Of a stretch of DNA of 25,045 nt, positions 2,470-22,641 are shown piece by piece. Under the pieces are notes generated by a model, which did no database searches, had not been told where the DNA came from, and saw only the letters and a list, made by a program, of their open reading frames with translations. Numbering within the stretch: position 1 is the first letter of the stretch; each line of letters starts with the position of its first letter. Source of the DNA: a virus. The position numbers and the translations under genes were made by a program. The stretch is taken from IMG/VR virus record IMGVR_UViG_3300010354_000595, positions 1 to 25,045 of that record, one strand, 5' to 3'.

Positions 2470-3123
2470 TTAGATCTCCACTAGTTTAGCAAGATGTTCT
2501 GGTTCTAGAGCGGTCTCTGTTAGCAAATCAATACCCAATGTTACCCTCGGTACTGGATTCATGTGCATTGTTGTCCAATGAATTAGATATTCTGGAAACA
2601 TAGTGATCCATCCAGGTTTGTTATCAAATGAAATACTATCTAAACCATATGGATTCTGATAAACCGTTTGAGTATCCCATGCTTGCAACGTCAGATTTGC
2701 TGATAGAAAACTATATTCATCACAAGCATGTTGATGAGGTTTCATTGCTTGACGTGATCTGAGAACATTTGCCCACATCTTTGCATATACTTTTTCATTG
2801 AGATCTGGACACATTTTATCAACGCCCTCACGAAGTTTCTGCTTGATTTTTTCACAAACTGGGTGATCCCACTGTAGTGCATTATATGCTTGAAACTTTG
2901 CAGTTAGGGAATATTCTCCAAGTCCAGTTCCACCATCATCTTTATACTGAGGATTCTGTGCAATAAAATCACCCTCCAATGAAAGAATGTGTGCTGTAAG
3001 ATCCTTACTTTCTTCTACAGTGAGGATCTCTTCATTCCATACTTTGATGGAATAACTAATTGCAAACGGAGTCAATGGGTCATTTTCCTGATGAAAGACC
3101 GTATAAATGTTGTCATTCTGCAT
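2470..3123 (-). CDS. 2OG-Fe(II) oxygenase-like protein
   Basis: A 217-aa protein of the type found in cyanophage 2-oxoglutarate/Fe(II)-dependent oxygenase clusters. A double-stranded beta-helix pattern is suggested by H-Q-H (H130, H132), a strand (FLSANLTLQAW), then G-W-I-T-M-F-P-E-Y-L-I-H (H182) and R-V-T-L-G (R193). These match the HxH...H...R metal and cosubstrate residues of TIGR02466-type proteins. The substrate is unknown; such enzymes hydroxylate proteins, nucleic acids or small molecules. I use ATG 3123; a GTG at 3132 is possible. It is the last and most divergent of four such genes, and a perfect sigma70 consensus lies about 110 nt upstream inside the preceding gene. Confidence 0.7.
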   Translation of the reverse strand: MQNDNIYTVFHQENDPLTPFAISYSIKVWNEEILTVEESKDLTAHILSLEGDFIAQNPQYKDDGGTGLGEYSLTAKFQAYNALQWDHPVCEKIKQKLREGVDKMCPDLNEKVYAKMWANVLRSRQAMKPHQHACDEYSFLSANLTLQAWDTQTVYQNPYGLDSISFDNKPGWITMFPEYLIHWTTMHMNPVPRVTLGIDLLTETALEPEHLAKLVEI

Positions 3124-3829
3124 TTGGAACACGCATCCCCATCCCGACTAATGAATATCTATGCTCGTCCAAGAATGATTCTTCTGGAATAAACGGTGAA
3201 TGGAAGTATCCACCATCATAGATTAGGCAACTATTATATTCAATTGGAGCAACTGTGTCAAGTTTCCAATCTTCATTACCACGAAAGTTCTCCCATGGTA
3301 CAACTATGTTTTCTCCTTCAGAGAAGAGTTCTTCATACTCTTCTAGTGACAACTCAGTAACATATTTTTTATCCCTCCACTTCCAAAATGCTGTTCCACC
3401 AATTCCATGGGACATCCATAGATTGAATACAAAATTGATTACATTCAATCCACCTTCAGGATCAGTAAATACGTCAGCATGAGGAAGATGAGATCCATTT
3501 AGCATAGGCATATCTCCAGTAAAAATATTATTGAATACTCTAACTGGCATAAAGTCTACATCTTCACGAATTCTTTCAACAATAGTTGCTGCTGCCCAGG
3601 GTGGAACTTCTTGACGCCATCCAGGAGCAAATCCACCAGTTTTTCTCCATTGTGTAGAGATGACAGGAAATTGTTCCATAATCTCTACAAACAAATCTGG
3701 TTCTTTCAAAAAGTCTCTGTACATTTTGAAAGAATTCATTCCATCAATATTCACATCAACCAGTTGGGTGTCTGGGTTGATCTGAACTGCTTTCAGGAAT
3801 TTCTCTTCATCAATCCAATTTAGTGTCAT
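3113..3829 (-). CDS. DUF6445-like putative Fe(II)/2OG-type oxygenase
   Basis: A 238-aa protein with residues typical of the 2OG-Fe(II) fold: H-A-D (H117, D119), a strand NFVFNLW, the substrate-side motif GGTAFWKWR (144-152), a distal H in Y-F-H-S-P-F (H210), and R224 in H-R-Y-S-L-V-G. The combination of a GGTAFW-type motif and Y-D-G-x-Y-F-H resembles the DUF6445 family, known to me as 2OG-oxygenase-like and present in marine phages and bacteria. Unlike its three neighbours it has HxD rather than HxH. It overlaps the upstream oxygenase gene by 20 nt and the downstream one by 11 nt, so the genes are surely co-translated. The substrate is unknown. Confidence 0.75.
   Translation of the reverse strand: MTLNWIDEEKFLKAVQINPDTQLVDVNIDGMNSFKMYRDFLKEPDLFVEIMEQFPVISTQWRKTGGFAPGWRQEVPPWAAATIVERIREDVDFMPVRVFNNIFTGDMPMLNGSHLPHADVFTDPEGGLNVINFVFNLWMSHGIGGTAFWKWRDKKYVTELSLEEYEELFSEGENIVVPWENFRGNEDWKLDTVAPIEYNSCLIYDGGYFHSPFIPEESFLDEHRYSLVGMGMRVPNAE
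3233..3261 (-). promoter_or_regulatory. Perfect sigma70 consensus inside an oxygenase gene
   Basis: The minus strand reads TTGACA (3256-3261), 17 nt, TATAAT (3233-3238): all 12 consensus bases at the optimal spacing. It lies inside the DUF6445-like gene, where it encodes part of LDTVAPIEYNS. Initiation near 3226 would place it about 100 nt ahead of the next oxygenase gene and the small-gene operon. Confidence 0.5.
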
Positions 3830-4490
3830 GTCTAGTTACCTTGAATGAGTATGATCCTCTGGTTTCAAATACTTCTGGAAGAACATTGAATGAGATGCTA
3901 ATCCTATTATCTGCATAGTTTTCTTCATACCCATGCACTAGATTAGATTCCCATAGCAATAGATCTCCTTCATCATGATCTATAATAGCACCACCAGAGT
4001 TATATTTTGTTTGTTTCAGTTCTGGAATTTCGATGTATGGTTTACACGATGCCCCAGGAATTGCATCTCTACTTTGAAATGCTAGATGTGGATGCTTTCC
4101 ACGAATAAAGTTTACAAAGTAAGTTCCAGAAATATACGAATTGCTATGAACATGCATAAACTGATATCCACCAGTATCACACTTGTTCAACCAACAATCT
4201 GTGATGATTACACTATCACATTTATAACCAAGAATGTCATTGATATAATCTAATGAACACTGTTTGATCCATTCTTCAAACTTATCAAACAATCCAGTAG
4301 AAAATAGATTTTGTCCACTTTTGTTGAAGTAATGTTCTAGTTCAATCGATGATTTATTAGTCTTTTTGTGAACATCATCATTGTATTGGTTTAGAACATC
4401 AAAACATTTTTGTTTGACATCATCAATACCATTTTGAGGCATTTTATATTTCCCAATGGCAGTGGGAAATACTTCCATAATATCTTTCAT
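3810..4490 (-). CDS. 2OG-Fe(II) oxygenase family protein (TIGR02466-like)
   Basis: A 226-aa putative 2-oxoglutarate/Fe(II)-dependent oxygenase. The metal motif H-V-H (H113, H115) is followed by SNSYISGTYFV, the characteristic S-G-x-Y-Y strand of this family. Near the C-terminus come GDLLLWESNLVHGYEEN (distal H186) and N-R-I-S-I-S-F-N (R196 for the 2OG carboxylate). The N-terminus MKDIMEVFPTAIG matches the family's usual 'lFptPig' opening. The substrate is unknown. Its ATG at 4490 overlaps the upstream stop (TAATG), and its end overlaps the next oxygenase gene by 20 nt. It shares its order of motifs with the gene at 4490-5161, so the two are likely paralogues. Confidence 0.85.
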   Translation of the reverse strand: MKDIMEVFPTAIGKYKMPQNGIDDVKQKCFDVLNQYNDDVHKKTNKSSIELEHYFNKSGQNLFSTGLFDKFEEWIKQCSLDYINDILGYKCDSVIITDCWLNKCDTGGYQFMHVHSNSYISGTYFVNFIRGKHPHLAFQSRDAIPGASCKPYIEIPELKQTKYNSGGAIIDHDEGDLLLWESNLVHGYEENYADNRISISFNVLPEVFETRGSYSFKVTRHDTKLD

Positions 4491-5161
4491 TAGAAATTCA
4501 AGCGATTGAGAGAATGGTCATTACCCAATTCACCTTTCATCCAGAAATTGAACGAAACACTAAATCTTGGGTCTGTAATATTCCTATTAGGTATTGTACC
4601 ATGTTCTAACCAGGATGGGAAGATCAATAGAGTACCTTTCTTTGGTCTAACGATAACTTCGCCCAGATTGAGTTCATTAGATGCAGATACTTTTGGCATC
4701 ACAAAGTGTCTTTTTACTGGATCCACAAACTTGAGGCAACCACCATTATCGGTGTGATCGATCTCTACATCATCAGGATACCACACTCCAGAGAAAAATG
4801 AATTGCTATGAGAATGTAGTTGAATTGATGCGTTTTTACCTAGAGAGTTTGCCCACATACAAACGATATATGGGTCAATATCTGTGTATCCATAGCACTT
4901 CCAGACACTGCGAACAGCAACTAGTAACTTCGCGCACAGTTTACTATACAGAGGATGTTTATCTAAAGTATCCTCTGTATAGAAATTCATGTGGGCAAGT
5001 TCAGGAATAATTTCTCTTGTATCCCATCTAGATCTCAGATCAGAAATGATATCATCCTGATTATCTACAAAGCATGGAAATTCAAATAGACAAGATGGAA
5101 AAATCTTGTGTACATGTGGTTCCATAGGTGCATTGGGACCATCATAATAAAAGTAACTCAT
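4490..5161 (-). CDS. 2OG-Fe(II) oxygenase family protein (TIGR02466-like)
   Basis: A 223-aa putative 2-oxoglutarate/Fe(II)-dependent oxygenase. Visible motifs are H-S-H (H116, H118) followed by SNSFFSGVWYPDD, then GGCLKFVDP, KKGTLLIFPSWLEHG (distal H187) and R-F-S-V-S-F-N (R199). This order is the hallmark of the TIGR02466-type family, common in marine T4-like cyanophages. The substrate is unknown. The ATG at 5161 forms an ATGA overlap with the coiled-coil gene upstream, so expression is probably tied to the late fibre region. The coding sequence contains a perfect 13-bp inverted repeat (4944-4982). Confidence 0.85.
   Translation of the reverse strand: MSYFYYDGPNAPMEPHVHKIFPSCLFEFPCFVDNQDDIISDLRSRWDTREIIPELAHMNFYTEDTLDKHPLYSKLCAKLLVAVRSVWKCYGYTDIDPYIVCMWANSLGKNASIQLHSHSNSFFSGVWYPDDVEIDHTDNGGCLKFVDPVKRHFVMPKVSASNELNLGEVIVRPKKGTLLIFPSWLEHGTIPNRNITDPRFSVSFNFWMKGELGNDHSLNRLNF
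4944..4982. repeat. Perfect 13-bp inverted repeat (hairpin) inside an oxygenase gene
   Basis: CTATACAGAGGAT (4944-4956) and its exact reverse complement ATCCTCTGTATAG (4970-4982) are separated by 13 nt. The transcript would form a stable hairpin within codons for FYTEDTLDKHPLYS. No run of T follows, so it is not a typical terminator. Confidence 0.85.
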
Positions 5162-11999: not shown

Positions 12000-12021
12000 G
12001 TTTCCAAATCCTTGATATTAC

Positions 12022-12029
12022 TATTTATT
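12022..12029 (-). promoter_or_regulatory. T4-type late promoter, AATAAATA
   Basis: AATAAATA on the minus strand, 22 nt before the 143-aa fibre gene, in the short gap after the 1256-aa gene. The spacing to the start is close to those of the other late boxes in this window. Confidence 0.65.
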
Positions 12030-12031
12030 GT

Positions 12032-15000
12032 TTAGATAGGCATTTCAACGATATGAATAACATCACCTGTTGACGGAATTGCGCCCTGATCAAACTGAAC
12101 CGAAGTACCAGTTGAGTTCATGGTATAATCAACTCCTCCTACTTGAGCAACACCATTCAGATACACAAGTACAGAACTAAATGTATGTTGAACTCCAGTA
12201 TATGCAGAAACGTTGAACGTTTGCGTTACACCATCTCCGTTATAGGTGCGAGTAATGTACTTGTTTGGAGAAACTGCACCACGACCAGTTACAGTCAGAT
12301 CACCCTGAATGTACGTATTACCATAAACTTTTAGGCGTTGATCAGTGGCAGCTGCTCCACCAATACCCATCGTTTCGGTTCCGTTATAGGCTCCACTTGT
12401 AGGTGTGATAATGTCAATGAAACCAGTATTTGTTAGTCCAAATTCTTTCCAAGTCTGATTATAATAAATCCAACCGAGTGATTTACCAGGTGCCCAATTG
12501 ATATTGTAAACTAGATCACCATCAGCAGGAGTGTCATATCCAGTGATCGTTGAAAAATCTGGTTGACCCTGTGCGTTCTCAGGTGCTAGTAGCGTCTGCT
12601 TGATAACAGTACCATCTTGGTTTACATAAGTAAGTTTCTTTGCAAGAATATTATTTGTGGATGATAGTGTACTCTGGAAAGTAACAGGACCAGCGAAGAT
12701 AGATTCCAACTGGTTAGATGCACCACCAATTACGGTGAGTTTATCAGTCAGAACCAGTTCAGAGAATGTCTGAATTGTTGTGTTCTCTTCACCAATAACG
12801 TTCAACTGTGCAATATCTTCATTGGTGATCTGACCCGTAACTGGGTTGATGATCTGGTTACCGATGAATAGGTCACCATTAGAGTTCAGACCAGAGTAGA
12901 ATGCAACACCAGCATCTTCCTTCGTAGACTGCGAGAACTTGATCTGATCTTCAGATAGAGTTTCAACTTGAGTCTGAGGGAATGCAGTCGAGTAGTTACC
13001 AGGACCGAAACCAGTGTATTCAAACGTGTGGTTACCAGAACGTAGAATAGAGTGTCTTCTCAGTTCTACAGGAATTGGATTGACATTGCCATTTCCATCG
13101 ATTCTGATAGGAATCTTGCGAGTTTCTTCGTCACCGAGACGTGCAGTCAGAACAATATTTGACAGTCTCTTGTTGACAGAATCCCAGTTTGGTGTTGTGC
13201 CTGGTTGTGACCATCCAGTATCCGCAAGCAAGAATAGAATTGCTTCTTTTGTGATAGAAAGTTGAGCATCTTTATTATTTTCTGCTGGAGTAGATCCATT
13301 CGTGGCATAAACCAGACCAATAGTCTTGATATCAGCAACAGAAACTGCTGCATCTGGATCTGCTACAGGATTATCCCTATCAAATGATGGATAAACTTCA
13401 TTGATATTCTGAGAGAATCTTCTATCGTCGTAATTAGAAGTTTGTGGTGTAATGGATGCACAAAGTAGAGTTATATAATAGACACCATCGGTTTCACCAC
13501 GAACAAATTTTTGCTTGGTCTCGATATCATAGATATAGAATGTTCTATCTAGATAATAACGGGTCAAGTCTGTATTGAGTGGCTGTACAACGAAACCAGA
13601 AATAGGAGAACGTGGTAATGGCAGTTGTTGATCTTTATCAATCTGCAAACGTACACGATATGTTCTGTCAACCAGGTTTCTTGCGTCAGGAACACGCTTG
13701 ATGAATGTGGTTGGAGTAAAGTTTACGTTGTTATACTGACTGTTAGTAACAATAGTAGTATAGATATCGTTGGTATTTGAATCGGTAGATAGATACCAAC
13801 CAGCGGGTTGTCCTCCAAATGCATTATTATATGTTCCAGAGTCATACTGAATTGGAGAACCAGCATCTCCAGGAGAAGTCACAGATACACTAGGACCATA
13901 TGGTACGATTCTTGCTGTCTTGATAGTTGCAGCAGATGCTCCAGAAGAAACTAGAAGACAATTTAGTTTATCTGGAATTGCAGACTGTCCAACACCATCT
14001 TGACGAGCACCAACAACATATCCCTGAATCTTATTAGTTGGAGGAGATTCTAGGTTAGTATAACCATAGAGATAAAGTCTTGAACCCGCTGCTTGTCCAA
14101 TGTTGACTAGCTGGGAATTGACAGTTTTTGTTCTTTGAATGTCAACGTTTACCCAGTTGATAGAAACTTCATCAACATCCGCGAGAGACTTTGGTGGAAT
14201 AATATGTGTAATCTTTGCAGACTTATCTTTCGTAAATGCTTGCTGTTTGAATCCTTTCGATCTCAGAGCAACAGATCCAAAGTTTGAGTTAGAGTTGGTG
14301 ATGGACATGTCAGCACCAGCATATCCAGCAAAGTGATCACCATATCCAACCGCGAACACCGAAACGACCTGAATGAATGCGTCGTTAGATGCCATAACGT
14401 GAGTATGTGCCCACCCCTTTCTATAACGAGCAAAACCATCTAGGTGAGCACCATCACCAGCAGTTGCTGCGAGATAGTTACCAGTTGATTCATCGAATCT
14501 TACAAATGCACGGTCATCTTTCTGTAGTGACAGACCAGTAAACTGTGCAACAACCATCGATTTGAAACCAGTTGCTTTGCTACCATCAGCGTGCATACCA
14601 TTCATACCCCAGGTAGATCTCAGGGATAGGTTGAACATGTATGGCGATGCAGAGTCAACTGTATCGATCTCAACTTTTACGACAATGTTTGTACCAGTTG
14701 CAGTTCCAGTTGGTTCTCCACCCATCTGATAAGTGAAAGTATTTCCAGACGCAGATGTAACTTGGAATGATCCGTTGTAGAGAGATGCATCAAGTTCTGG
14801 TGCGGTTCCCTGAGATCCAGTTACACCACTGATGTTGACGTTTACACCAACAGAGAATCCATGATCTCTTGGTTGTCCGAATTCATCAACAGTAACAGCA
14901 GTTGCAGTCTGACCGTTACGAGTAATCTGGAGAACACGATATTCGTCAGAGATAGGACCAACGATTCTGTTTTCCTCAACTCTTGCCTGAATCTGGTCAG

Positions 15001-15802
15001 TTGCAGGATCGCCAGATGTATCAGGAATTGTAGCAAATGCTTTTGATACTTTTTGATAGTAAATATCTAGATCTGTTCTGTCTAGAATATTAGCAACTGC
15101 AGAATAGTCGCTGTTTGGAACTCTGTCAGCGGCAATAAGATCTGCAAGTGTATTTACACCATCAGCAAATCCAAATGCTGTTAGTTTATGGTGCGAATAT
15201 GATGGTTGAATTGTTTCTGTAGAGTCTGGTCTAAAATATACACCAGTAGTATCACCATCAAAGAAAGAAAACTGCCAGAAATAGCAACCACCAGTAACGC
15301 TAAAAATGTTACATGGTTTTGGCGATTGCTCTTCGGTATTGATATTTTTTGCTGCGTAGATAGTTGGATATGGTACGTACTTGGGAATAATCTTGGTTCT
15401 TCTCAAGTCAGAACCAACGATAGAACAACCTCTGGGTACGATAACTCCCCCTTCTACAGAATTGTACTTATAAAGTACGTTGTTTGGTGAAGTGATATCT
15501 AAGTTTGAGTTAGAATCAATTGGTGCTACGTTTGTATATAGAACTTCACCTGGTCTGTTGTCAATGACATATTCAGAAGGATATAGATAAATTGAAAATG
15601 CATCAAATTCGTCGTTAGAAAGACCAACTCGATACGAGAATCGTGCCACCTCAAGAAATGCCCTCTGAAGAGTCTTGAATGGTCTTAGAGATGAGTTTCC
15701 TCTGTTGTCAATCGAATCCGATGCATCAAAATCGTCTGGGTTGACGTAGATAATACGTCCAGTTCTGGACGTAATAATATTCTTGAGTCTTGTTAGTGAC
15801 AT
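12032..15802 (-). CDS. Large virion structural / tail fibre-like protein (1256 aa)
   Basis: The largest gene here. Near the N-terminus GRIIYVNPDDFDASDSIDNRG, then S-S-L-R-P-F-K-T-L-Q-R-A-F-L-E-V-A and a long Ser/Asn/Gly-rich beta region resemble the entry to a right-handed parallel beta-helix of the pectate-lyase-like type common in phage tail proteins. The C-terminal 80 residues (YNGDGVTQTFNVS...V-L-V-Y-L-N-G-V-A-Q...D-Y-T...G-D-V-I-H-I-V-E) match the small beta-sandwich domain that ends many T4-like cyanophage fibre proteins. The product is probably a virion fibre or baseplate-attached protein. No catalytic residues are evident. A late promoter overlaps the stop codon of the upstream gene, 24 nt before this ATG. 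Confidence 0.8.
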   Translation of the reverse strand: MSLTRLKNIITSRTGRIIYVNPDDFDASDSIDNRGNSSLRPFKTLQRAFLEVARFSYRVGLSNDEFDAFSIYLYPSEYVIDNRPGEVLYTNVAPIDSNSNLDITSPNNVLYKYNSVEGGVIVPRGCSIVGSDLRRTKIIPKYVPYPTIYAAKNINTEEQSPKPCNIFSVTGGCYFWQFSFFDGDTTGVYFRPDSTETIQPSYSHHKLTAFGFADGVNTLADLIAADRVPNSDYSAVANILDRTDLDIYYQKVSKAFATIPDTSGDPATDQIQARVEENRIVGPISDEYRVLQITRNGQTATAVTVDEFGQPRDHGFSVGVNVNISGVTGSQGTAPELDASLYNGSFQVTSASGNTFTYQMGGEPTGTATGTNIVVKVEIDTVDSASPYMFNLSLRSTWGMNGMHADGSKATGFKSMVVAQFTGLSLQKDDRAFVRFDESTGNYLAATAGDGAHLDGFARYRKGWAHTHVMASNDAFIQVVSVFAVGYGDHFAGYAGADMSITNSNSNFGSVALRSKGFKQQAFTKDKSAKITHIIPPKSLADVDEVSINWVNVDIQRTKTVNSQLVNIGQAAGSRLYLYGYTNLESPPTNKIQGYVVGARQDGVGQSAIPDKLNCLLVSSGASAATIKTARIVPYGPSVSVTSPGDAGSPIQYDSGTYNNAFGGQPAGWYLSTDSNTNDIYTTIVTNSQYNNVNFTPTTFIKRVPDARNLVDRTYRVRLQIDKDQQLPLPRSPISGFVVQPLNTDLTRYYLDRTFYIYDIETKQKFVRGETDGVYYITLLCASITPQTSNYDDRRFSQNINEVYPSFDRDNPVADPDAAVSVADIKTIGLVYATNGSTPAENNKDAQLSITKEAILFLLADTGWSQPGTTPNWDSVNKRLSNIVLTARLGDEETRKIPIRIDGNGNVNPIPVELRRHSILRSGNHTFEYTGFGPGNYSTAFPQTQVETLSEDQIKFSQSTKEDAGVAFYSGLNSNGDLFIGNQIINPVTGQITNEDIAQLNVIGEENTTIQTFSELVLTDKLTVIGGASNQLESIFAGPVTFQSTLSSTNNILAKKLTYVNQDGTVIKQTLLAPENAQGQPDFSTITGYDTPADGDLVYNINWAPGKSLGWIYYNQTWKEFGLTNTGFIDIITPTSGAYNGTETMGIGGAAATDQRLKVYGNTYIQGDLTVTGRGAVSPNKYITRTYNGDGVTQTFNVSAYTGVQHTFSSVLVYLNGVAQVGGVDYTMNSTGTSVQFDQGAIPSTGDVIHIVEMPI

Positions 15803-15826
15803 TGGTTATCTACTATCCTTCTGTGT

Positions 15827-15834
15827 TATTTATC
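15827..15834 (-). promoter_or_regulatory. T4-type late promoter, GATAAATA
   Basis: GATAAATA on the minus strand overlaps the TGA stop of the 488-aa gene and lies 24 nt before the 1256-aa gene. It matches the NATAAATA late consensus. Confidence 0.7.
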
Positions 15835-17299
15835 AGCCGCCACTAGCACCGCCTGCTTGAGGACCAGCAGATGCGTCGTAGCTTCTTAGTGTAATATCAG
15901 TGGATGCGTCTTGGAATCCACTAAAATCAAACATAATATTTTGCGTTGCTGCATAAACAATCAACGCTTGTCCAGGACCAATTACAAGAGAAGTAAGTCT
16001 TGTATCTGCAGTAATACTTTTTCCATATACAATCCAATCCTGTGCTTCAATATCTGTAGCAGATACAGCAACAGCACTCACAGTAACTAGTGATCTATCT
16101 CCGCCATATACAGGAACATCATAGAATGTATCCGTAGCAGCAAATGCAGCAGATCCAGCACCAGTGGTAACTTTTAGGTTAGTTCCAGAAGAAGACTGAA
16201 CATATGCCCATTTAGATCCACTCTGACTATCGAGAGTAAATGTGGTTTGACCGAGAGTGATTGAATCTGAAGAGTTTGTCCAGGTTCCTACTACATCATA
16301 AACATAAATTGAATCATACGAATAATCAACCGATAAGTTGACAACCTGACTACCCCCACCAAGATTTCCATCGTTTGCATCGAAGTAGTAATAGGTTGCG
16401 GTTCCACCACCATTCTGTGACATATCATAACGTACATATGCACCAGCATTTCCTGCAGTTCCATTTACGGTTTTGCCTGCAGTATATTCAATGCCGTCGT
16501 CTGAAGTTCCAGAAAGACCATCAATACCCCAAGTACCGTTGATTGTAGTGGAAAGTTGTAGGAGAGTTCCACTCATCGAAGCATCAGAAACATAAAATGT
16601 ATATGTTCTGTCAAGATACAAAGTAATGCTAGAAGATCTACGAAGACTGTATACACCGCCAGATCCAGTGCTAGAGAATACAAACTCGTTTCTTGCAACT
16701 CCAATACCACCAACCGCAATGTCAGTTGTTGCACCAGAAGTTCCACCAGTTAGAGTATCACCTTCTACAAAAGATCCTCCAGATCTAGGTCCAAGATAAA
16801 GTGTTGGACCACCAAATGATCCTGCGATAATATCATAGATGACTGCACTAACTCCACCGAAAGTTACAGTCTCCCCAATTTGAAATGTGCCAGATAGGTT
16901 TTCAGTACTAAAAGATGTTAGACTTACTTTTTTGACATAGAAATCTGTAGAAGGTGGAACATAATATGATTCCCATCTAAATGATTTTTCTCCGTCATCA
17001 GATGTATATTTTGTTCCAGGAGAAAAAGTATCTTGTTGATTAGTTGTAATTGGAATTGGTGCATCAAATGTTAGAACTTTATTTGTAATTACATCGCCAC
17101 GATGCAATTTATACGTCGATGCATCCAGTGTTAGAGAGAGATCATATTGCTTCACTCCAACACGAACAGCTGCTGCAGTGCCATCATTCACCATATTTAG
17201 AACACCGCTAGCGGCGGAGTCAATAGGTGCTCGATACAATACAGTATTTGTGGTTGCAGCAGGTTTTGCTGATGCTAGTTTTCCTGTAAGTGTTGCCAT
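15833..17299 (-). CDS. Virion structural protein, beta-rich (488 aa)
   Basis: A beta-rich, Gly/Ser/Thr-rich protein of the type annotated as structural in T4-like cyanophages. Near residues 136-195 there is a pair of related units (F-Q-I-G-E-T-V-T-F-G-G...and F-V-E-G-D-T-L-T-G-G-T-S-G-A), a 'GetvtGgtSGA' repeat common in phage virion proteins. The C-terminal domain (about 405-470: GGDRSLVTVSAVAVSATDIE, then DWIVYGKSI, L-V-I-G-P-G-Q-A-L-I-V-Y) looks like a closed beta-sandwich, followed by a flexible Gly/Ala tail. No enzymatic motif. It starts 5 nt after the 439-aa gene and is probably expressed from the late promoter ahead of that gene. Confidence 0.75.
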   Translation of the reverse strand: MATLTGKLASAKPAATTNTVLYRAPIDSAASGVLNMVNDGTAAAVRVGVKQYDLSLTLDASTYKLHRGDVITNKVLTFDAPIPITTNQQDTFSPGTKYTSDDGEKSFRWESYYVPPSTDFYVKKVSLTSFSTENLSGTFQIGETVTFGGVSAVIYDIIAGSFGGPTLYLGPRSGGSFVEGDTLTGGTSGATTDIAVGGIGVARNEFVFSSTGSGGVYSLRRSSSITLYLDRTYTFYVSDASMSGTLLQLSTTINGTWGIDGLSGTSDDGIEYTAGKTVNGTAGNAGAYVRYDMSQNGGGTATYYYFDANDGNLGGGSQVVNLSVDYSYDSIYVYDVVGTWTNSSDSITLGQTTFTLDSQSGSKWAYVQSSSGTNLKVTTGAGSAAFAATDTFYDVPVYGGDRSLVTVSAVAVSATDIEAQDWIVYGKSITADTRLTSLVIGPGQALIVYAATQNIMFDFSGFQDASTDITLRSYDASAGPQAGGASGG

Positions 17300-17304
17300 T
17301 GTTA

Positions 17305-18624
17305 TTAGAATCCAGCGTAGAAGAATTGTTGTTGTCTTGTTCTACCCGTCAGGGTAGCAGCACCGATACCAGCACCAAATGTAACATCGTCAAGAGTAAC
17401 GTTTTCGGTAGAAAGTAGCGTTGCGTCTGCGTTTGGAAACTTGATTGTTCTCAGTTCAGTAATGTTAGTTAGATCAAAAATAACCGAGGAAGATCCACCG
17501 AATGCAGATTTGATAACTGGGTTTAGAAGAGTCTTATTTCTAAGATCTTGTGCTGCTCTCTCGGTAACAAGAACATTATTACCGCCTGCATTATTTAGCA
17601 AACTATTATTTGGGAACTGATAAGTTTCGTTTGTGTTCTCAGTTAGATTGTCAAAAACAAAATTGATTTTCTTAGTAATAGTTGTGGCAGATGCAAACGC
17701 TGGGTTTGCATATACTTTGTTGGTTACTGTCTGAGTAGAATCAGTACCAAGAAGTGTCAAACTGATATCAGGAACTGTAATCGTTCTGTTGGACGTAATT
17801 CCAGATGTATTGAACTGTGCAAAGAACGTTGAGTCGAACGTTTGTTTTGTTTTTAGTTGAACAAAAGTTTTTCCAAGAACTGTTTGGGTTGTTTTTGTAT
17901 CGAGAAGTGTAGAATGAAGTGAGTTTGGTTCTCCAGTTGTGGTGATTGGACCTGCATCGGGTAGAAAATATGATCTACGTGCAGATTCAGTTTCGGTCCA
18001 ATCGATTTGGAAAATCGCCTCCTCAGTTCCATCAACAAGAACGAAATCATCCTCACCAACGAGAATAGTTTTATTTCTTAGAGTTTGAAGAGTATCATCA
18101 CCAATAAGAACTGTACCATTACCAGATGTAATTGGAGGTAGGTTGAAAACTCTCGTGGTGCTTCCACTACCAATACCAGAAATCTCGAATCTTGCTCTCG
18201 CTCCTAGAGAATCCTCAAGAATGAAAGCAGTATCATCAATACGAAACTGTCCAGTAACTCGTACAGAACCAGATCCTTTTGGTGCAAGAACTAAGTCAGA
18301 GTTATTTACTGCGTTATCAAGTGCTGTTAGATATTGAGATGTACTTCCATCTGAGTTGAGTAGACGTGTAAAATATACACCTCCATTACCCCAGGATAAA
18401 CCAAGTTGATTGTAGGCATTCTGGTACATTCCAGTATCCCTATCCAGGTCAAACGCTAGTCCAGGGGCAGTTTTTGTTCCAGCCGCAATACCCTTGAATA
18501 GTTGGTTTACTTTTGCTTTTCTATTTGGAGAAAGAGGATCCGAAATAATTACTGGAAGAAATGCTTCTCCAGATAAAGATCCTGTTGCGACATCATCCAA
18601 TTGCGAAATCTTTTTAGTTCCCAC
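17305..18624 (-). CDS. Virion fibre-like protein with degenerate repeats (439 aa)
   Basis: Starts with GTG at 18624 (MGTKKISQLDD), since the first in-frame ATG is far inside at residue 66. The N-terminal part has K-I-S-Q-L-D-D and GTKTAPGLAFDLDRDTGMY, typical of T4-like cyanophage fibre proteins. Four imperfect repeats of the form Q-T-L-R-N-K-T-I / Q-T-V-L-G-K-T-F / Q-T-V-T-N-K-V-Y / Q-D-L-R-N-K-T-L occur near residues 180, 247, 298 and 359, each after a strand with a P-D/P-N turn and an L-L-x-T-x motif. This indicates a repetitive beta shaft. The perfect late box TATAAATA stands 27 nt upstream. No convincing Shine-Dalgarno sequence is visible. Confidence 0.8.
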   Translation of the reverse strand: MGTKKISQLDDVATGSLSGEAFLPVIISDPLSPNRKAKVNQLFKGIAAGTKTAPGLAFDLDRDTGMYQNAYNQLGLSWGNGGVYFTRLLNSDGSTSQYLTALDNAVNNSDLVLAPKGSGSVRVTGQFRIDDTAFILEDSLGARARFEISGIGSGSTTRVFNLPPITSGNGTVLIGDDTLQTLRNKTILVGEDDFVLVDGTEEAIFQIDWTETESARRSYFLPDAGPITTTGEPNSLHSTLLDTKTTQTVLGKTFVQLKTKQTFDSTFFAQFNTSGITSNRTITVPDISLTLLGTDSTQTVTNKVYANPAFASATTITKKINFVFDNLTENTNETYQFPNNSLLNNAGGNNVLVTERAAQDLRNKTLLNPVIKSAFGGSSSVIFDLTNITELRTIKFPNADATLLSTENVTLDDVTFGAGIGAATLTGRTRQQQFFYAGF

Positions 18625-18651
18625 GAGATTATTGACAGTTCTTACAGAAGC

Positions 18652-18659
18652 TATTTATA
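18652..18659 (-). promoter_or_regulatory. T4-type late promoter, TATAAATA
   Basis: A perfect TATAAATA on the minus strand, in the 37-nt gap between the halogenase-like gene and the 439-aa fibre gene. It probably starts the late structural transcript covering 18624-15833 and beyond. Confidence 0.75.
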
Positions 18660-18661
18660 AT

Positions 18662-19738
18662 CTATGGAACATAGATATTTTGAAGACCCTCGTACATATT
18701 CATCACAGATTCGGAACTATGAAATCCATATGTAACCATGTTTGTCCTCAGATTCATATCGATGATATTTTCTAGGTGAGGATCATCTACGGTAAGTGTT
18801 TTTGCATAATCCCAGAAAGGAGTATCATACTTAGATCCAAACTGATAATGATACAGAATGAAATTCATATTCTCTTTGATTGATCTCTGCATATCAAACA
18901 CTGCAGTTTCCAGAGGAAGACCATCAAGAAGTACATCCATTGTCTTGAACGTCCACTTCAAATACCCAGCAACTGAAGTTGCTTCCATTGGTTCAATAAA
19001 GAAATACTTATTCCCGTTCAGGAAAATTCTACCATCAATCACTGGATTTTTAGCACAATAATTCCTGAACGGGAATTTTTTGACTACCTTCTCAATACCA
19101 AACAGTTCTTTGAAATTAGATTCTGCTTGCTCATCTGTAGTGATTGTATCATTATAGAGATATCCATATTGTATACGATTCTTGAGATGAATTACAAAAC
19201 ACCACCCATCAGGAGTTGCTACAGTTCTTGTCCAGGGAACAAACTGTGGATTTGGCATATTCGATAGAAGAACTTTATTCAGGGGATTTTTGAGTTCTTC
19301 GTAATCTGTATAATCTTTAGGGAAACCAGTACAATCATAGATGTAATCAGCATCAATATCATCATAAGATGAAATGTTCTTTTGAGTTACTGGAAACAAA
19401 CCCGCATCGCACATAGACTCTTGAAATGCTTGTGGATCGAAGTGCATTCCAACTTGATTGAAATTGAATGGGTGAAACCAATCTCCTTTCTTTCCCCAGT
19501 TCTCATACATGATACCCATCTTAGGTGTTGCATGAAATGTATTATTCTGCCACGTCAAACTCCATCCAAAAGTATCCGATAAAAAATCTGTCAGACCAGG
19601 AAAAGATCCTGATCCGACAGGTTCGGTTGGAATTTCTTTATCATAATAAAGTTCAATTTCAGTTTTAGGGGACAGCACTTTCCAATGCAATGCAGTAATG
19701 ACTCCTGCTAGTCCCTTTCCAATAATGCCAATTTTCAT
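18662..19738 (-). CDS. Flavin-dependent tryptophan-halogenase-like protein
   Basis: A 358-aa FAD-dependent protein. The N-terminus MKIGIIGKGLAG has the GxGxxG dinucleotide motif (7-12). Then come PVGSGSFPGLTDFL (40-53, corresponding to the conserved 'VGEaT.P' region), H-A-T-P-K-M-G-I-M-Y-E-N-W (69-81, with Lys73 at the place of the essential halogenase lysine), G-W-C-F-V-I (178-183, variant of G-W-x-W-x-I-P), E-P-M-E-A-T-S (249-255, variant of EPLEsT) and H-Y-Q-F...D-T-P-F-W (297-309). Typical tryptophan halogenases have about 500-540 residues, so this is markedly shortened. Halogenation is plausible but the variant GWxWxIP motif leaves room for a different FAD chemistry. Its start overlaps the talC stop by 4 nt. 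A perfect 15-bp inverted repeat lies inside it. Confidence 0.8.
   Translation of the reverse strand: MKIGIIGKGLAGVITALHWKVLSPKTEIELYYDKEIPTEPVGSGSFPGLTDFLSDTFGWSLTWQNNTFHATPKMGIMYENWGKKGDWFHPFNFNQVGMHFDPQAFQESMCDAGLFPVTQKNISSYDDIDADYIYDCTGFPKDYTDYEELKNPLNKVLLSNMPNPQFVPWTRTVATPDGWCFVIHLKNRIQYGYLYNDTITTDEQAESNFKELFGIEKVVKKFPFRNYCAKNPVIDGRIFLNGNKYFFIEPMEATSVAGYLKWTFKTMDVLLDGLPLETAVFDMQRSIKENMNFILYHYQFGSKYDTPFWDYAKTLTVDDPHLENIIDMNLRTNMVTYGFHSSESVMNMYEGLQNIYVP
19010..19076. repeat. Perfect 15-bp inverted repeat inside the halogenase-like gene
   Basis: ATTCCCGTTCAGGAA (19010-19024) and its exact reverse complement TTCCTGAACGGGAAT (19062-19076) are separated by 37 nt. On the plus strand the second arm runs into six T (19076-19081), so it would resemble a terminator for antisense transcription, though the loop is long. 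Confidence 0.85.
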
Positions 19739-20391
19739 ACTTCTAGTCGTTTCCAGTCTTTTTTGAATTGCTCAAGTCCAAGATCAGTGAGTGAGTGAAT
19801 GTACATTTTTTCGAACAATGCTGGTGGCATTGTAACAATATCAGCACCATTTAGAAATGCCTTTTCTACATGATCAACTGTTCTTGTTGATGCTGCTAGA
19901 ACCTCAGTATCTTGAACTCCATGAGCATCATAGCACGAACAGATGTTTCTAATCAACATAATTGAATCAAATCTTTGGTCTTCGACTCTACCAATAAAGG
20001 GAGATACAAATGCTGCACCTGCTTTATGAGCAAGGATTGCTTGAGATACAGAAAATACCAGAGTTACATTTACAGGAATCCCTTCATCAGACAGTTGATT
20101 ACATGCTTTTAGTCCTTCGTATGTACATGGAACTTTGATGGTTACGTTTGGTGATATTTCGTAGTATGGAACTGCTTCTTTTACCATCTCATCTGCAGTT
20201 TCAGACATCACTTCAGCACTGATACTTGCATATTGACCATCAAAAATATGAGCAATTTCTCGAATTACTTCAAGTGGATCATGCCCATAACTTGCCATTA
20301 GAGATGGATTTGTTGTTACACCGTCGATAAGACCTGTTGGGAAATGTTTGGCAATAATATCTACATCAGATGTGTCCAGAAAGATTTTCAT
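19735..20391 (-). CDS. talC: Transaldolase-like protein TalC
   Basis: A 218-aa member of the small transaldolase / fructose-6-phosphate aldolase family (TalC/FSA). Visible features: F-L-D-T (Asp6), T-T-N-P-S (26-30), I-K-V-P with the Schiff-base Lys86, N-V-T-L-V-F (108-113) and S-P-F-I-G-R (130-135). The length is normal for the family. In marine cyanophages TalC is a known auxiliary metabolic gene: it feeds the pentose phosphate pathway and, with CP12, shifts host carbon flux towards nucleotide and NADPH supply. A Shine-Dalgarno AAGGAG stands 8 nt upstream of ATG 20391, which overlaps the upstream stop as ATGA. The stop in turn overlaps the halogenase-like start, so both are translated from one message. 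Confidence 0.95.
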   Translation of the reverse strand: MKIFLDTSDVDIIAKHFPTGLIDGVTTNPSLMASYGHDPLEVIREIAHIFDGQYASISAEVMSETADEMVKEAVPYYEISPNVTIKVPCTYEGLKACNQLSDEGIPVNVTLVFSVSQAILAHKAGAAFVSPFIGRVEDQRFDSIMLIRNICSCYDAHGVQDTEVLAASTRTVDHVEKAFLNGADIVTMPPALFEKMYIHSLTDLGLEQFKKDWKRLEV

Positions 20392-20603
20392 TGGGGTTTC
20401 TCCTTTTCTTGTTTAGATAGGCGGAAATACATTTTATAGTATTTGGACCTCAACTTTGATACTATTTCAAAGTCCTCAGTATCTATACAATCAAGAAAAA
20501 AACAGCATCCTTCTAACTCACTAATAAGTCTGAGAATCAAGACACTGTTTAGTTCTGTTACACTATGTTTGGTTCTAATCAAACTTAGGTCCGATGATTC
20601 CAT
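20388..20603 (-). CDS. Small helical protein, unknown function (71 aa)
   Basis: A 71-aa protein, probably all-helical, with two adjacent Cys regions (GCCFFLDC, residues about 32-39) and a basic C-terminus (RLSKQEKEKPQ). Not recognised. It overlaps the upstream 70-aa gene by 29 nt, and its TGA overlaps the talC start as ATGA. Its last codons also form the talC ribosome binding site, so talC translation may depend on it. Confidence 0.7.
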   Translation of the reverse strand: MESSDLSLIRTKHSVTELNSVLILRLISELEGCCFFLDCIDTEDFEIVSKLRSKYYKMYFRLSKQEKEKPQ

Positions 20604-20787
20604 CTTTCATATCATCAAACTTATCAAGAATACCATCCAAAGATTTCATTTGATCAATCCGACAAAGAAGTTCGGAGATTGCATTACACACGATGGGTCG
20701 TTCACCTCTCGCGGCATAAGCAAGAGCATTACGAAGAGAAGCAGCAGCTTCATCAAGTGATTCTGTTACTGATTGGGAAAGTGCCAT
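20575..20787 (-). CDS. Small helical protein, unknown function (70 aa)
   Basis: A 70-aa protein beginning MALSQSVTESLDEAAASLRNALAYAARGER, amphipathic and Ala/Leu-rich at the N-terminus, then a second helix with two cysteines (C34, C42). It fits a small helical bundle; no family is recognised. A late-type AATAAATA box lies 12 nt before the ATG, unusually close, so any transcript from it would have a leader of only a few nucleotides. It probably begins a transcript that covers talC and the halogenase-like gene. Confidence 0.75.
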   Translation of the reverse strand: MALSQSVTESLDEAAASLRNALAYAARGERPIVCNAISELLCRIDQMKSLDGILDKFDDMKDGIIGPKFD

Positions 20788-20799
20788 TTTGAAAATGAT

Positions 20800-20807
20800 T
20801 ATTTATT
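20800..20807 (-). promoter_or_regulatory. Late-type promoter box, AATAAATA
   Basis: AATAAATA on the minus strand, within TATAATAAATAATC, 12 nt ahead of the 70-aa gene that leads to talC. Closer to the start codon than the other late boxes (22-31 nt), so it is less certain. It overlaps the end of the 57-aa gene. Confidence 0.5.
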
Positions 20808-20979
20808 ATAAAGGATATAATTCATTGTAGCGTAAAAACCGTCTCATATTTGGTTCAACATCAAGAGATGTGCAAATATCGAGATAGTCCTGCCATTCAC
20901 TCTCCAAGTGAGAAGGAATTGAGAGGTCCGAGATCTTGTTCGCAGTTGAGGAGTTTGACGAGGCGTTGGGTTTTGTCAT
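20806..20979 (-). CDS. Small protein, unknown function (57 aa)
   Basis: A short frame that explains the sequence after the 110-aa gene. From ATG 20979 it encodes a Ser/Asn/Thr-rich start (MTKPNASSNSSTANK) and then a protein-like second half with S-E-W-Q-D-Y-L-D-I-C and M-R-R-F-L-R-Y-N-E-L-Y-P-L. It overlaps the end of the upstream gene by 83 nt; a TTG at 20907 would reduce this to 11 nt and give 33 residues. The W-x-D-Y-L...R-F-L-x-Y-x-E-L-Y-P pattern looks conserved, but I cannot name a family. No good Shine-Dalgarno is seen for either start. Confidence 0.6.
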   Translation of the reverse strand: MTKPNASSNSSTANKISDLSIPSHLESEWQDYLDICTSLDVEPNMRRFLRYNELYPL

Positions 20980-21229
20980 AGAATTTTTTATGATAGTCAG
21001 ACCAAGATTTCACCTCAGCACAAAGATCCTTATAAAACTCTTCATAACTAGTATCTTCATCAGTTAGATAGTCGCCAATGATGTCAGTTAGACGATCTCG
21101 GCGTTGTGATTTATAAGTGTCCATAGCCCATTTGTCACGAAGTTCTTGTGGAGGAGGAGGAACTTGTAGTGTAAATTCCCGTTCAGTAAAAGTTTTACCC
21201 TTATCTGGGGATTCAAAGATTTTTGTCAT
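20897..21229 (-). CDS. Small charged phage protein, unknown function (110 aa)
   Basis: A 110-aa acidic protein: MTKIFESPDKGKTFTEREFTLQVPPPPQELRDKW..., with a proline stretch (PPPP) and then a charged helical part (SYEEFYKDLCAEVKSWSDYHKKFYDKTQRLVKLL). Part of the coupled small-gene run below the tRNAs. The ATG at 21229 overlaps the upstream stop as ATGA. Not recognised; no enzymatic motif is visible. Confidence 0.75.
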   Translation of the reverse strand: MTKIFESPDKGKTFTEREFTLQVPPPPQELRDKWAMDTYKSQRRDRLTDIIGDYLTDEDTSYEEFYKDLCAEVKSWSDYHKKFYDKTQRLVKLLNCEQDLGPLNSFSLGE

Positions 21230-21552
21230 TCGAATTCTCCTGTTTTGTTTTTTGCTGTTGCACTGCTATAAACGCCTTCAATTCGGGTGTCTCCACCCAT
21301 TCCCATACGGTTCCATCTTTCTGTTCGTAAGACTTCGGAGTAGTTCTTATTTTCATGAATTTGAATCTCGATAGTGGTTTGATCATTCCAGTGTCGAATC
21401 ACACCAGCAATAATAAAGCAGTTTGTAATTAGATATGTGCCGAAGATTACAGTACGTATCAATGCAACTTGATCTGCAATGTTATCACGTTTGTGAGCTT
21501 TTTCTCCAATTGCTTTTGCCCATAGTCTCCATACATTATTCATTTTGAGCAT
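21226..21552 (-). CDS. Small membrane protein, conserved in cyanophages (108 aa)
   Basis: A 108-aa protein with one clear membrane segment near residues 33-53 (TVIFGTYLITNCFIIAGVI), a basic amphipathic N-terminal part (WRLWAKAIGEKAHKRDN) and a hydrophilic C-terminal half. By the positive-inside rule the N-terminus is probably cytoplasmic. The N-terminal WRLWAKAIGEKA pattern is one I associate with conserved T4-like cyanophage small proteins, function unknown. A start at ATG 21543 (MNNVWRLW) is equally possible; it lies at the end of the upstream 57-aa gene. Confidence 0.75.
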   Translation of the reverse strand: MLKMNNVWRLWAKAIGEKAHKRDNIADQVALIRTVIFGTYLITNCFIIAGVIRHWNDQTTIEIQIHENKNYSEVLRTERWNRMGMGGDTRIEGVYSSATAKNKTGEFE

Positions 21553-21709
21553 TCGTCATCATGTATTCTACAGTTTTGGCAACATCTTCCATGGCATCAC
21601 GAAGAAACGGTTGCTGTCCAGACTCTTGACGAATGATAGGTCTGCTTCCATCAACCAATGTCCAACGCCATTGTTTCATCTCTTCGCAATACCACAGATT
21701 TATTCTCAT
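21536..21709 (-). CDS. Small conserved phage protein (57 aa)
   Basis: A 57-aa protein in the gap between its neighbours: MRINLWYCEEMKQWRWTL, then G-S-R-P-I-I-R-Q-E-S-G-Q-Q-P-F-L-R-D-A-M-E-D-V. The pattern (N-L-W-Y...Q-W-R-W-T-L...E-S-G-Q-Q...L-R-D-A-M) looks like a conserved cyanophage small protein, function unknown. Its ATG overlaps the stop of the 193-aa gene as ATGA, and its TAA overlaps the start of the membrane protein gene, so it is firmly set in the coupled run. Confidence 0.8.
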   Translation of the reverse strand: MRINLWYCEEMKQWRWTLVDGSRPIIRQESGQQPFLRDAMEDVAKTVEYMMTNAQNE

Positions 21710-22287
21710 ACTTTCTCCAATCGATAAACTACACCATCAATCATAATCATCTCAGCAACACCCAGTTTCTGTTGAGGAAAAATTTCCACAAAATTTTCAG
21801 GAAGTTCCTGATCTAGTGGTAAAGTGGCAGTTCCAGTTTTTTCTAAACGTTTTTGCTTCTTCTTTTCTTCTTTTGCTAAACGTCGTGATTCTGCCTGATT
21901 TTTGATAAATTTTAGATAAGGACCTGCAATTTTATCATAATGATCCCATCCACCATTAGCGACATCATCAACGAACATCTCGGAGAGATTATCAACTACA
22001 TTTTGACTAAACTGCTTCCCTCTCTCATTATACTTAGAGTCGCTACTAAAAACTTTAGCAAAGTAATCAACATATTCTTGACTAATAACTCTACCCATGC
22101 GCTTTCTTGCATCTTCTACACATGCAAATCCAGTCTCTAGAGTAAATTGAACATTACGAATTCTTTTGCTTTCAGATTTACCAACTCTTTTCAAGTGTGC
22201 TTCATATATTTGAACATATGATTGATTCATATACCGTTGGAGTTCTGGAAATAACTCATACATTTCACGGGTGTACTTAGCAGTCAT
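21706..22287 (-). CDS. Phage protein of unknown function (193 aa)
   Basis: A 193-aa protein. The first 130 residues look helical and mixed (MTAKYTREMYELFPELQRYM...), followed by a very basic helix near 135-150 (RRLAKEEKKKQKRLEK) that could touch nucleic acid, then a short C-terminal beta part (VAEMIMIDGVVYRLEKV). No family is recognised. It is the first gene after a near-consensus sigma70 promoter (22311-22339) placed immediately behind tRNA-Ala, so it is probably an early gene and leads the small-gene run to talC. Confidence 0.75.
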   Translation of the reverse strand: MTAKYTREMYELFPELQRYMNQSYVQIYEAHLKRVGKSESKRIRNVQFTLETGFACVEDARKRMGRVISQEYVDYFAKVFSSDSKYNERGKQFSQNVVDNLSEMFVDDVANGGWDHYDKIAGPYLKFIKNQAESRRLAKEEKKKQKRLEKTGTATLPLDQELPENFVEIFPQQKLGVAEMIMIDGVVYRLEKV

Positions 22288-22310
22288 GATGAATGATAGA
22301 TTCTGAATTT

Positions 22311-22339
22311 AGTATAGGATGATTATGGGTTGCTGTCAA
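22311..22339 (-). promoter_or_regulatory. Strong sigma70-type promoter with palindromic -35 region
   Basis: TTGACA (22334-22339), 17 nt, TATACT (22311-22316) on the minus strand: 11 of 12 consensus bases. The -35 box lies inside the 16-nt palindrome GGGTTGACAGCAACCC (22327-22342), which could be an operator or a hairpin ending the tRNA transcript. It points to the 193-aa gene 24 nt downstream of the -10 box. Confidence 0.7.
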
Positions 22340-22344
22340 CCCTA

Positions 22345-22417
22345 TGGAGAATAGGAGACTCGAACTCCTGACAGCCTGCTTGCAAAGCAGGTGCTCTACC
22401 AACTGAGCTAATTCCCC
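22345..22417 (-). tRNA. tRNA-Ala(TGC)
   Basis: A full cloverleaf is readable on the minus strand: acceptor GGGGAAT/ATTCTCC, D-arm GCTC...GAGC, anticodon stem CCTGC/GCAGG with loop TTTGCAA, T-arm AGGAG-TTCGAGT-CTCCT, discriminator A. The anticodon TGC (22382-22384 on the plus strand as GCA) reads GCN codons. The 3' CCA is not encoded. Confidence 0.95.
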
Positions 22418-22495
22418 GAGGTGGAGATGATCGTAACCATCCCCGACGCAATCACGGCATTTCGGTTTATCTTTCCGACGCAAATGATTGCGGAG

Positions 22496-22567
22496 AGCCC
22501 CCGATCTGATTTGAACAGACGACCAGCGGTTTACAAAACCGCTGCTCTACCACTGAGCTACAAGGGC
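22496..22567 (-). tRNA. tRNA-Thr(TGT)
   Basis: Acceptor GCCCTTG/CGGGGGC (with G-T pairs), D-arm GCTC...GAGC, anticodon stem GCGGT/ACCGC with loop TTTGTAA, T-arm GTCTG-TTCAAAT-CAGAT, discriminator T. Anticodon TGT reads ACA best. It stands only 3 nt after tRNA-Gly, and 78 nt before tRNA-Ala. Confidence 0.95.
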
Positions 22568-22570
22568 TGG

Positions 22571-22641
22571 AGCGGGAAACGGGGATCGAACCCGTGATTT
22601 CAACTTGGAAGGATGACGTGTTACCGCTACACCATTCCCGC
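22571..22641 (-). tRNA. tRNA-Gly(TCC)
   Basis: Acceptor GCGGGAA/TTCCCGC, D-arm GTGTA...ACAC, anticodon loop CTTCCAA with anticodon TCC, T-arm ACGGG-TTCGATC-CCCGT, discriminator T. It reads GGA best. Its first 15 nt are also the 3' end of the 55-aa gene. Confidence 0.95.

Follow-up and report, generated by a model that had tools for sequence, protein, structure and literature searches.

A compact flavin-dependent halogenase family gene beside talC in a cyanophage-related virus record, and its short-class relatives

The halogenase gene and its surroundings

The window analysed here is the whole of a 25,045-nucleotide stretch, a 25-kb virus record, whose positions 12000-22300 are closest to cyanophages S-SSM2, S-RIM14, and S-ShM2 (75.7% over 68%), all T4-like phages of marine Synechococcus. 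Its minus strand carries a 358-residue coding sequence with an ATG start (18662-19738), which we place in the flavin-dependent halogenase family, short type, on profile, fold, and selection evidence. Immediately upstream lies talC, encoding a 218-residue transaldolase (19735-20391, minus strand; PHROG 440 transaldolase, 1e-93), and its stop shares four bases, ATGA, with the halogenase start (19735-19738, minus strand), confirming the overlap that the earlier note had read from the sequence. Two small overlapping ORFs (71 residues, DUF7212, and 70 residues; 20388-20787, minus strand) stand at the head of the same overlapping gene run. The Shine-Dalgarno sequence is strong before talC (AAAAGGAG) and weak before the halogenase, which together with the ATGA overlap makes reinitiation at the halogenase start plausible.

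Just past the halogenase stop lies ATAAATA (18652-18658, minus strand), the late-promoter core (T4/cyanophage type) of the structural gene that follows; NATAAATA has been described as the cyanophage late promoter (PMC2984593). ATAAATA occurs six times in the window (8390, 12022, 15827, 18652, 20800, and 22944), always on the minus strand, which is the coding strand, and this number is about equal to the 6.2 expected by chance. Four of the six copies stand 23-28 nt before structural ORFs, and the motif lies at or overlaps the halogenase stop in six of six clade relatives, or seven genomes with this one. Its position behind the stop implies that the halogenase closes the talC gene run and that the tail-fibre operon starts afresh, weakening the idea that in this clade the halogenase is part of the late tail-fibre operon. 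Further along the minus strand are three tRNA genes (Ala, Thr, Gly; 22345-22641), and a 68-residue ORF at 22277-22483 that overlaps tRNA-Ala is probably not a gene.

The S-ShM2 protein SShM2_028, annotated as ‘tryptophan halogenase’ (YP_004322694.1), is 68% identical to the 358-residue protein over its full length, and sequence divergence is the sole difference between the two. In S-ShM2, talC likewise overlaps the ‘tryptophan halogenase’ gene by 4 bases, and the genes downstream, for a virion structural protein and then tail fibres, are the same as in the window; the talC-‘tryptophan halogenase’ pair recurs in S-RIM14 and S-SSM2. No characterisation of SShM2_028 was found in the searchable literature. 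The gene in the window is a new homologue of already annotated virus halogenase genes. The earlier note had called a halogenase striking in a virus; earlier reports temper this, as they describe prnA-type genes in many cyanophages (PMC3037559, PMC2984593) and an active viral halogenase, VirX1 (PMC8407142).

Family, predicted fold, and active-site residues

The 358-residue protein is clearly a member of the flavin-dependent tryptophan-halogenase family, variant A, as the earlier note had supposed together with an FAD-type fold. Enzymes of this family put chlorine, bromine, or iodine on aromatic molecules. The protein matches PF04820 (Trp_halogenase) with an E-value of 3.7e-31 (108.9 bits, cut-off 21). 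The match is broken into two parts, at about profile positions 1-103 and 200-418, indicating that some 100 profile positions are reduced to about 30 residues and that the protein end is short. Because the PF04820 cut-off is lenient enough to be exceeded in control genomes as well, E. coli among them, passing it counts for little by itself, and direct similarity to solved halogenases is the stronger evidence. A single-sequence search of the PDB matched RebH (E 1e-15), while a 64-member family profile placed tryptophan halogenases first (E 9e-41 to 1e-33), with best values of 9e-41 for 9luq, 2e-37 for PyrH, 1e-35 for VirX1, and 2e-34 for MibH. PHROG 2928 ‘tryptophan halogenase’ matches the protein with E 1e-95, and PF04820 was found in every one of 64 diverse homologues scanned. 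An AlphaFold model from the 64-member alignment reached pLDDT 94.7 and pTM 0.92, and the best 50 PDB fold matches listed for it are all flavin-dependent halogenases (PyrH, MibH, SttH, PrnA, Thal, and others), with query TM of 0.73-0.85. PyrH, RebH, PrnA, and MibH resemble it within this TM range in fold and share the Lys and Glu and the HxF motif, but are only about 16-20% identical to it in structural alignments. Fold similarity leaves the substrate undecided, since the best matches include free-tryptophan enzymes and MibH, the halogenase of a peptide (PMC12615548), alike. The solved tryptophan halogenases among the PDB matches have about 490-550 residues, in keeping with the earlier estimate of a protein about 150 residues shorter than usual, and 358 residues is less than any solved halogenase among the database matches.

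Conservation was counted over 112 non-identical short homologues. The patterns used in the homologue search included NGN..FF[ED]P, SKYDTPFW, and GI.YE.WG, and conservation in those columns therefore carries no independent weight; the patterns did not contain K73, HxF, GWxF, or E252. The GxGxxG FAD-binding loop occupies residues 7-12 (G7-K-G9-L-A-G12; 19703-19720, minus strand), with G7 and G9 in 111/112 and G12 in 110/112. Lys73 (19520-19522, minus strand) aligns with RebH K79 and PyrH K75; losses among homologues were looked for, and the residue proved invariant (112/112), the sole Lys among positions conserved in at least 95%. H89-P-F91 (19466-19474, minus strand) aligns with the HPF of PyrH and represents the HxF or ‘Trp2’ motif, which stacks on indole in tryptophan halogenases (PMC8269204), with His in 107 and Phe in 109 of the 112. 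HY...GSKYDTPFW spans residues 297-309 (18812-18850, minus strand), where W309 is present in 112/112 and lies in a search-pattern column.

The segment GWCFVIH (residues 178-184; 19187-19207, minus strand) departs from the canonical GWxWxIP. Position 181 is Phe in 111/112, giving a class consensus of GWxFxIP against GWxW in long phage halogenases, and position 184 is Pro in 104 members and His in the other eight, the present protein among them. Some halogenases of proven activity lack the GWxWxIP motif or have a variant of it (PMC8407142), so GWCFVIH does not exclude family membership. FIEPME (residues 247-252 of FIEPMEAT, 247-254; 18983-19000, minus strand) matches the overlapping tunnel motif FX[DE]PX[EFL], as defined in PMC8407142, and its Glu252 aligns with RebH E357 and PyrH E354. 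The tunnel motif Fx.Px.Sx.G is partly kept, with Ala for Ser and Ser for Gly in this protein, and its Gly is replaced by Ser or Ala in 111/112 short homologues. All the motifs named in the earlier note are thus present: GxGxxG, Lys73, GWCFVI(H), the EPLEsT variant FIEPMEAT, and HY...DTPFW.

The two glutamates singled out in that note, Glu249 and Glu252, are Glu in 111/112 and 109/112. The three E252 exceptions, from S-SSM7, P-TIM40, and Campylobacter phage CP21, all carry Gln, a replacement of the catalytic Glu reported to inactivate a flavin halogenase (PMC8407142), so these relatives may be different enzymes. Two long-type genes, those of Syn1 and Sf-CH11, likewise have Gln at the position of the catalytic Glu, which with the three short-class genes makes five such loci (L009:5001-6104, L010:5001-6200, L011:5013-6152, L138:910-2346, and L141:1911-3308). 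Both S-SSM7 and P-TIM40 carry the short and the long type.

A short class, its distribution, and its neighbours

Relatives of the protein are encoded at about 500 IMG/VR loci (536 and 484 in two scans of overlapping sets). A full-length, 54%-identical short halogenase gene also occurs on a gammaproteobacterial contig of the BD1-7 clade (L123:4682-5791), between HAD hydrolase and malate dehydrogenase, ordinary chromosomal genes, so the short class is not strictly viral. Together these occurrences discount an invention private to this virus.

The 112 short homologues have 347-454 residues (median 378), and we compared them with 12 long phage halogenases of 464-540 residues. The two sets differ in three places, one being the GWxF against GWxW already given. 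Between HxF and the next conserved His there are exactly 7 residues in 103/112 short homologues (residues 92-98 here; 19445-19465, minus strand), as against 50-69 in the long set. Past the Trp of DTPFW, the short proteins continue for a median of 60 residues (range 40-94) and the long ones for 77-126; the 358-residue protein has only 49 after Trp309. In a maximum-likelihood tree, 44 short and 12 long rows are split by one branch (SH-aLRT 98; a quick method with a midpoint root and several long branches), which argues that shortness is an inherited class trait rather than damage. The gene is also under purifying selection, with dN/dS of 0.03-0.14 against five relatives (approximate ratios, synonymous sites being near saturation), indicating that it is selected and not decaying. 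Full-length relatives, this constraint, and the confident fold dispose of a pseudogene or truncated fragment.

Judged by alignment and length rather than superposed coordinates, the short class has no counterpart of the Trp3 region or the C-terminal Trp4 region, which hold the amino-acid end of tryptophan (PMC8269204), and has a loose counterpart of the Trp1 stretch. The protein differs from PyrH, RebH, PrnA, and MibH in the absence of these two regions and in having Phe for the second Trp of GWxWxIP. VirX1 of cyanophage Syn10 (PDB 6QGM), reported as the first characterised viral halogenase (PMC8407142), has in common with it a phage origin, the FAD box, and the catalytic Lys and Glu. However, VirX1 is of the long type (531 residues in the PDB), and long phage enzymes of its kind have GWxW, the longer stretch after HxF, and an extended C-terminus; in the Syn10 enzymes, YPF stands in place of HxF. 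Sullivan et al. 2010 listed cyanophage PrnA genes of 1104-1593 bp, and thus saw short ones, which the accessible part of that paper does not discuss as a class (PMC3037559). No report of an assay of any short-class member was found in the searchable literature. The short class differs from every characterised flavin halogenase that we found in two deletions and one motif. Elsewhere in the set, two short halogenase-like genes (362 and 364 residues) stand in tandem with a 4-base overlap (L092:4001-6180).

Linkage to talC, which the earlier note had wished to see checked in other cyanophages, holds in S-ShM2, S-RIM14, and S-SSM2 and fails in several close relatives. The ATGA overlap with talC is kept in S-ShM2, S-RIM14, L015, L020-L022, and L094. 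In contrast, a 94%-identical relative (L014) has other small genes upstream and no talC, L018 and L019 have no talC upstream, 142 nt lie between talC and the halogenase in L016, and talC is split into two ORFs in L017. Among loci of the wider short class, none was found with talC beside it. ATGA overlaps with the upstream gene occur at 12 of about 60 loci with various upstream genes, talC being the partner in two of the 12; the overlap with talC is therefore unremarkable. Only the closest clade shows the linkage, and not all of its members do, which eliminates talC as a general partner: it shares an operon with the halogenase in one clade without being a partner in its mechanism.

Across the short class, the commonest annotated immediate neighbours are 2OG-Fe(II) oxygenases. 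PF13759 and PF13640 each gave 6 matches among 56 upstream neighbour proteins, and 5 and 7 matches, respectively, among 54 downstream, counts that may cover the same proteins. A home-made iterative profile placed a 2OG oxygenase next to 27/57 loci, at a rate of 28% one gene away versus 14% three or more genes away (p 0.0016); this profile may have drifted, and the Pfam tallies independently support the trend. The window itself has four overlapping genes beyond the tail-fibre cluster (2470-5161, minus strand), three of which match 2OG-Fe(II) oxygenases (PF13759 / PHROG 81), the one at 2470-3132 below the Pfam cut-off. The fourth gene of the run (3113-3829) matches PHROG 1644 ‘minor coat protein’ and falls narrowly short of the cut-off for DUF6445.

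Proposed mechanism, substrate, and alternatives

We consider it reasonably probable, by analogy with characterised enzymes, that the protein is a compact two-component halogenase of variant A (PrnA/RebH/PyrH-like) that depends on FADH2 and has kept its catalytic apparatus intact, and that it represents a short subfamily often met in T4-like phages of the sea. No PF01613 flavin reductase was found in four phage genomes carrying PF04820 genes, and PF01613 is present in Synechococcus elongatus, suggesting that FADH2 would be supplied by a host flavin reductase. As in PrnA and RebH, FADH2 held in the FAD box of the enzyme would react with O2 to form a C4a-hydroperoxide, which would be attacked by halide, abundant in seawater, to yield HOX. 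On the same model, HOX would travel through an internal tunnel to Lys73, and Lys73 with Glu252 would present it to an aromatic ring stacked by His89 and Phe91. The substrate is probably not free tryptophan, because the segments that bind its amino-acid end are missing while HxF is kept; from the sequence, we would expect an aromatic of the indole or phenol type, which could be a small molecule or a group carried on a larger one. Bacterial halogenases lacking Trp4 act on indole and not on tryptophan (PMC8269204). Three observations count against halogenase activity, namely the Phe within WxWxIP in 111/112, the partial Fx.Px.Sx.G motif, and the three E252Q relatives.

The first two of these also bear on a different fate, that of a former halogenase now acting as a flavin monooxygenase or oxidase, in which the shortened substrate part and GWxF let the substrate reach the flavin and oxygen is transferred. 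The loss of substrate-part segments agrees with this reading, and the 2OG-Fe(II) oxygenase neighbours would fit an oxidative pathway. Against it stand the invariant K73 and the almost invariant E252 of the 112 diverse members, and we know of no role for this Lys other than handling HOX. In WxWxIP, the second Trp (Phe here) has been proposed to suppress monooxygenation, but the exact roles of the motif's residues are unsettled (PMC10696468), and the absence or variation of the motif in some proven halogenases also weighs against the conversion. We regard such a conversion as possible although unlikely.

The 2OG-Fe(II) oxygenase neighbours are also the main reason for keeping in view an opened-site halogenase that would act on an aromatic side chain belonging to a large or tethered substrate (a phage or host protein, a peptide, or a glycan-linked group), often together with these oxygenases. 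Such an activity, which we think rather unlikely, would make the short class a phage-encoded halogenating modification system.

Database names (tryptophan halogenase, prnA) suggest a true tryptophan halogenase that converts the free amino acid to halogenated tryptophan, and the retained HxF and loose Trp1 counterpart are compatible with it. The missing Trp3 and Trp4 regions, the 7-residue replacement of 50-69 residues, the short tail past Trp309, and the inactivity of Trp4-less halogenases on tryptophan all stand against this, and we judge it improbable. Least credible, and in our view very improbable, is a functional talC-halogenase pair in which coupled translation sets the ratio and transaldolase or pentose-phosphate flux feeds the halogenase: the conserved overlap and the contrasting ribosome sites favour it and NADPH from the pentose-phosphate pathway could, in principle, serve a flavin reductase, but the clade-local linkage tells against it and against the fixed ratio that the earlier note had proposed, and coupling need not mean a fixed ratio.

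No role in infection for cyanophage prnA-like enzymes was found in the searchable literature. Genes of this kind have been known in cyanophages for years, with one long enzyme, VirX1, proven. A size of 358 residues would be of interest to biocatalysis, and length filters in marine metagenome mining (e.g., the BrvH study, PMC5945002) could reject short-class genes. The short class keeps the Lys, Glu, and HxF and loses the parts that grip tryptophan, a combination that predicts activity on aromatic compounds without specificity for tryptophan.
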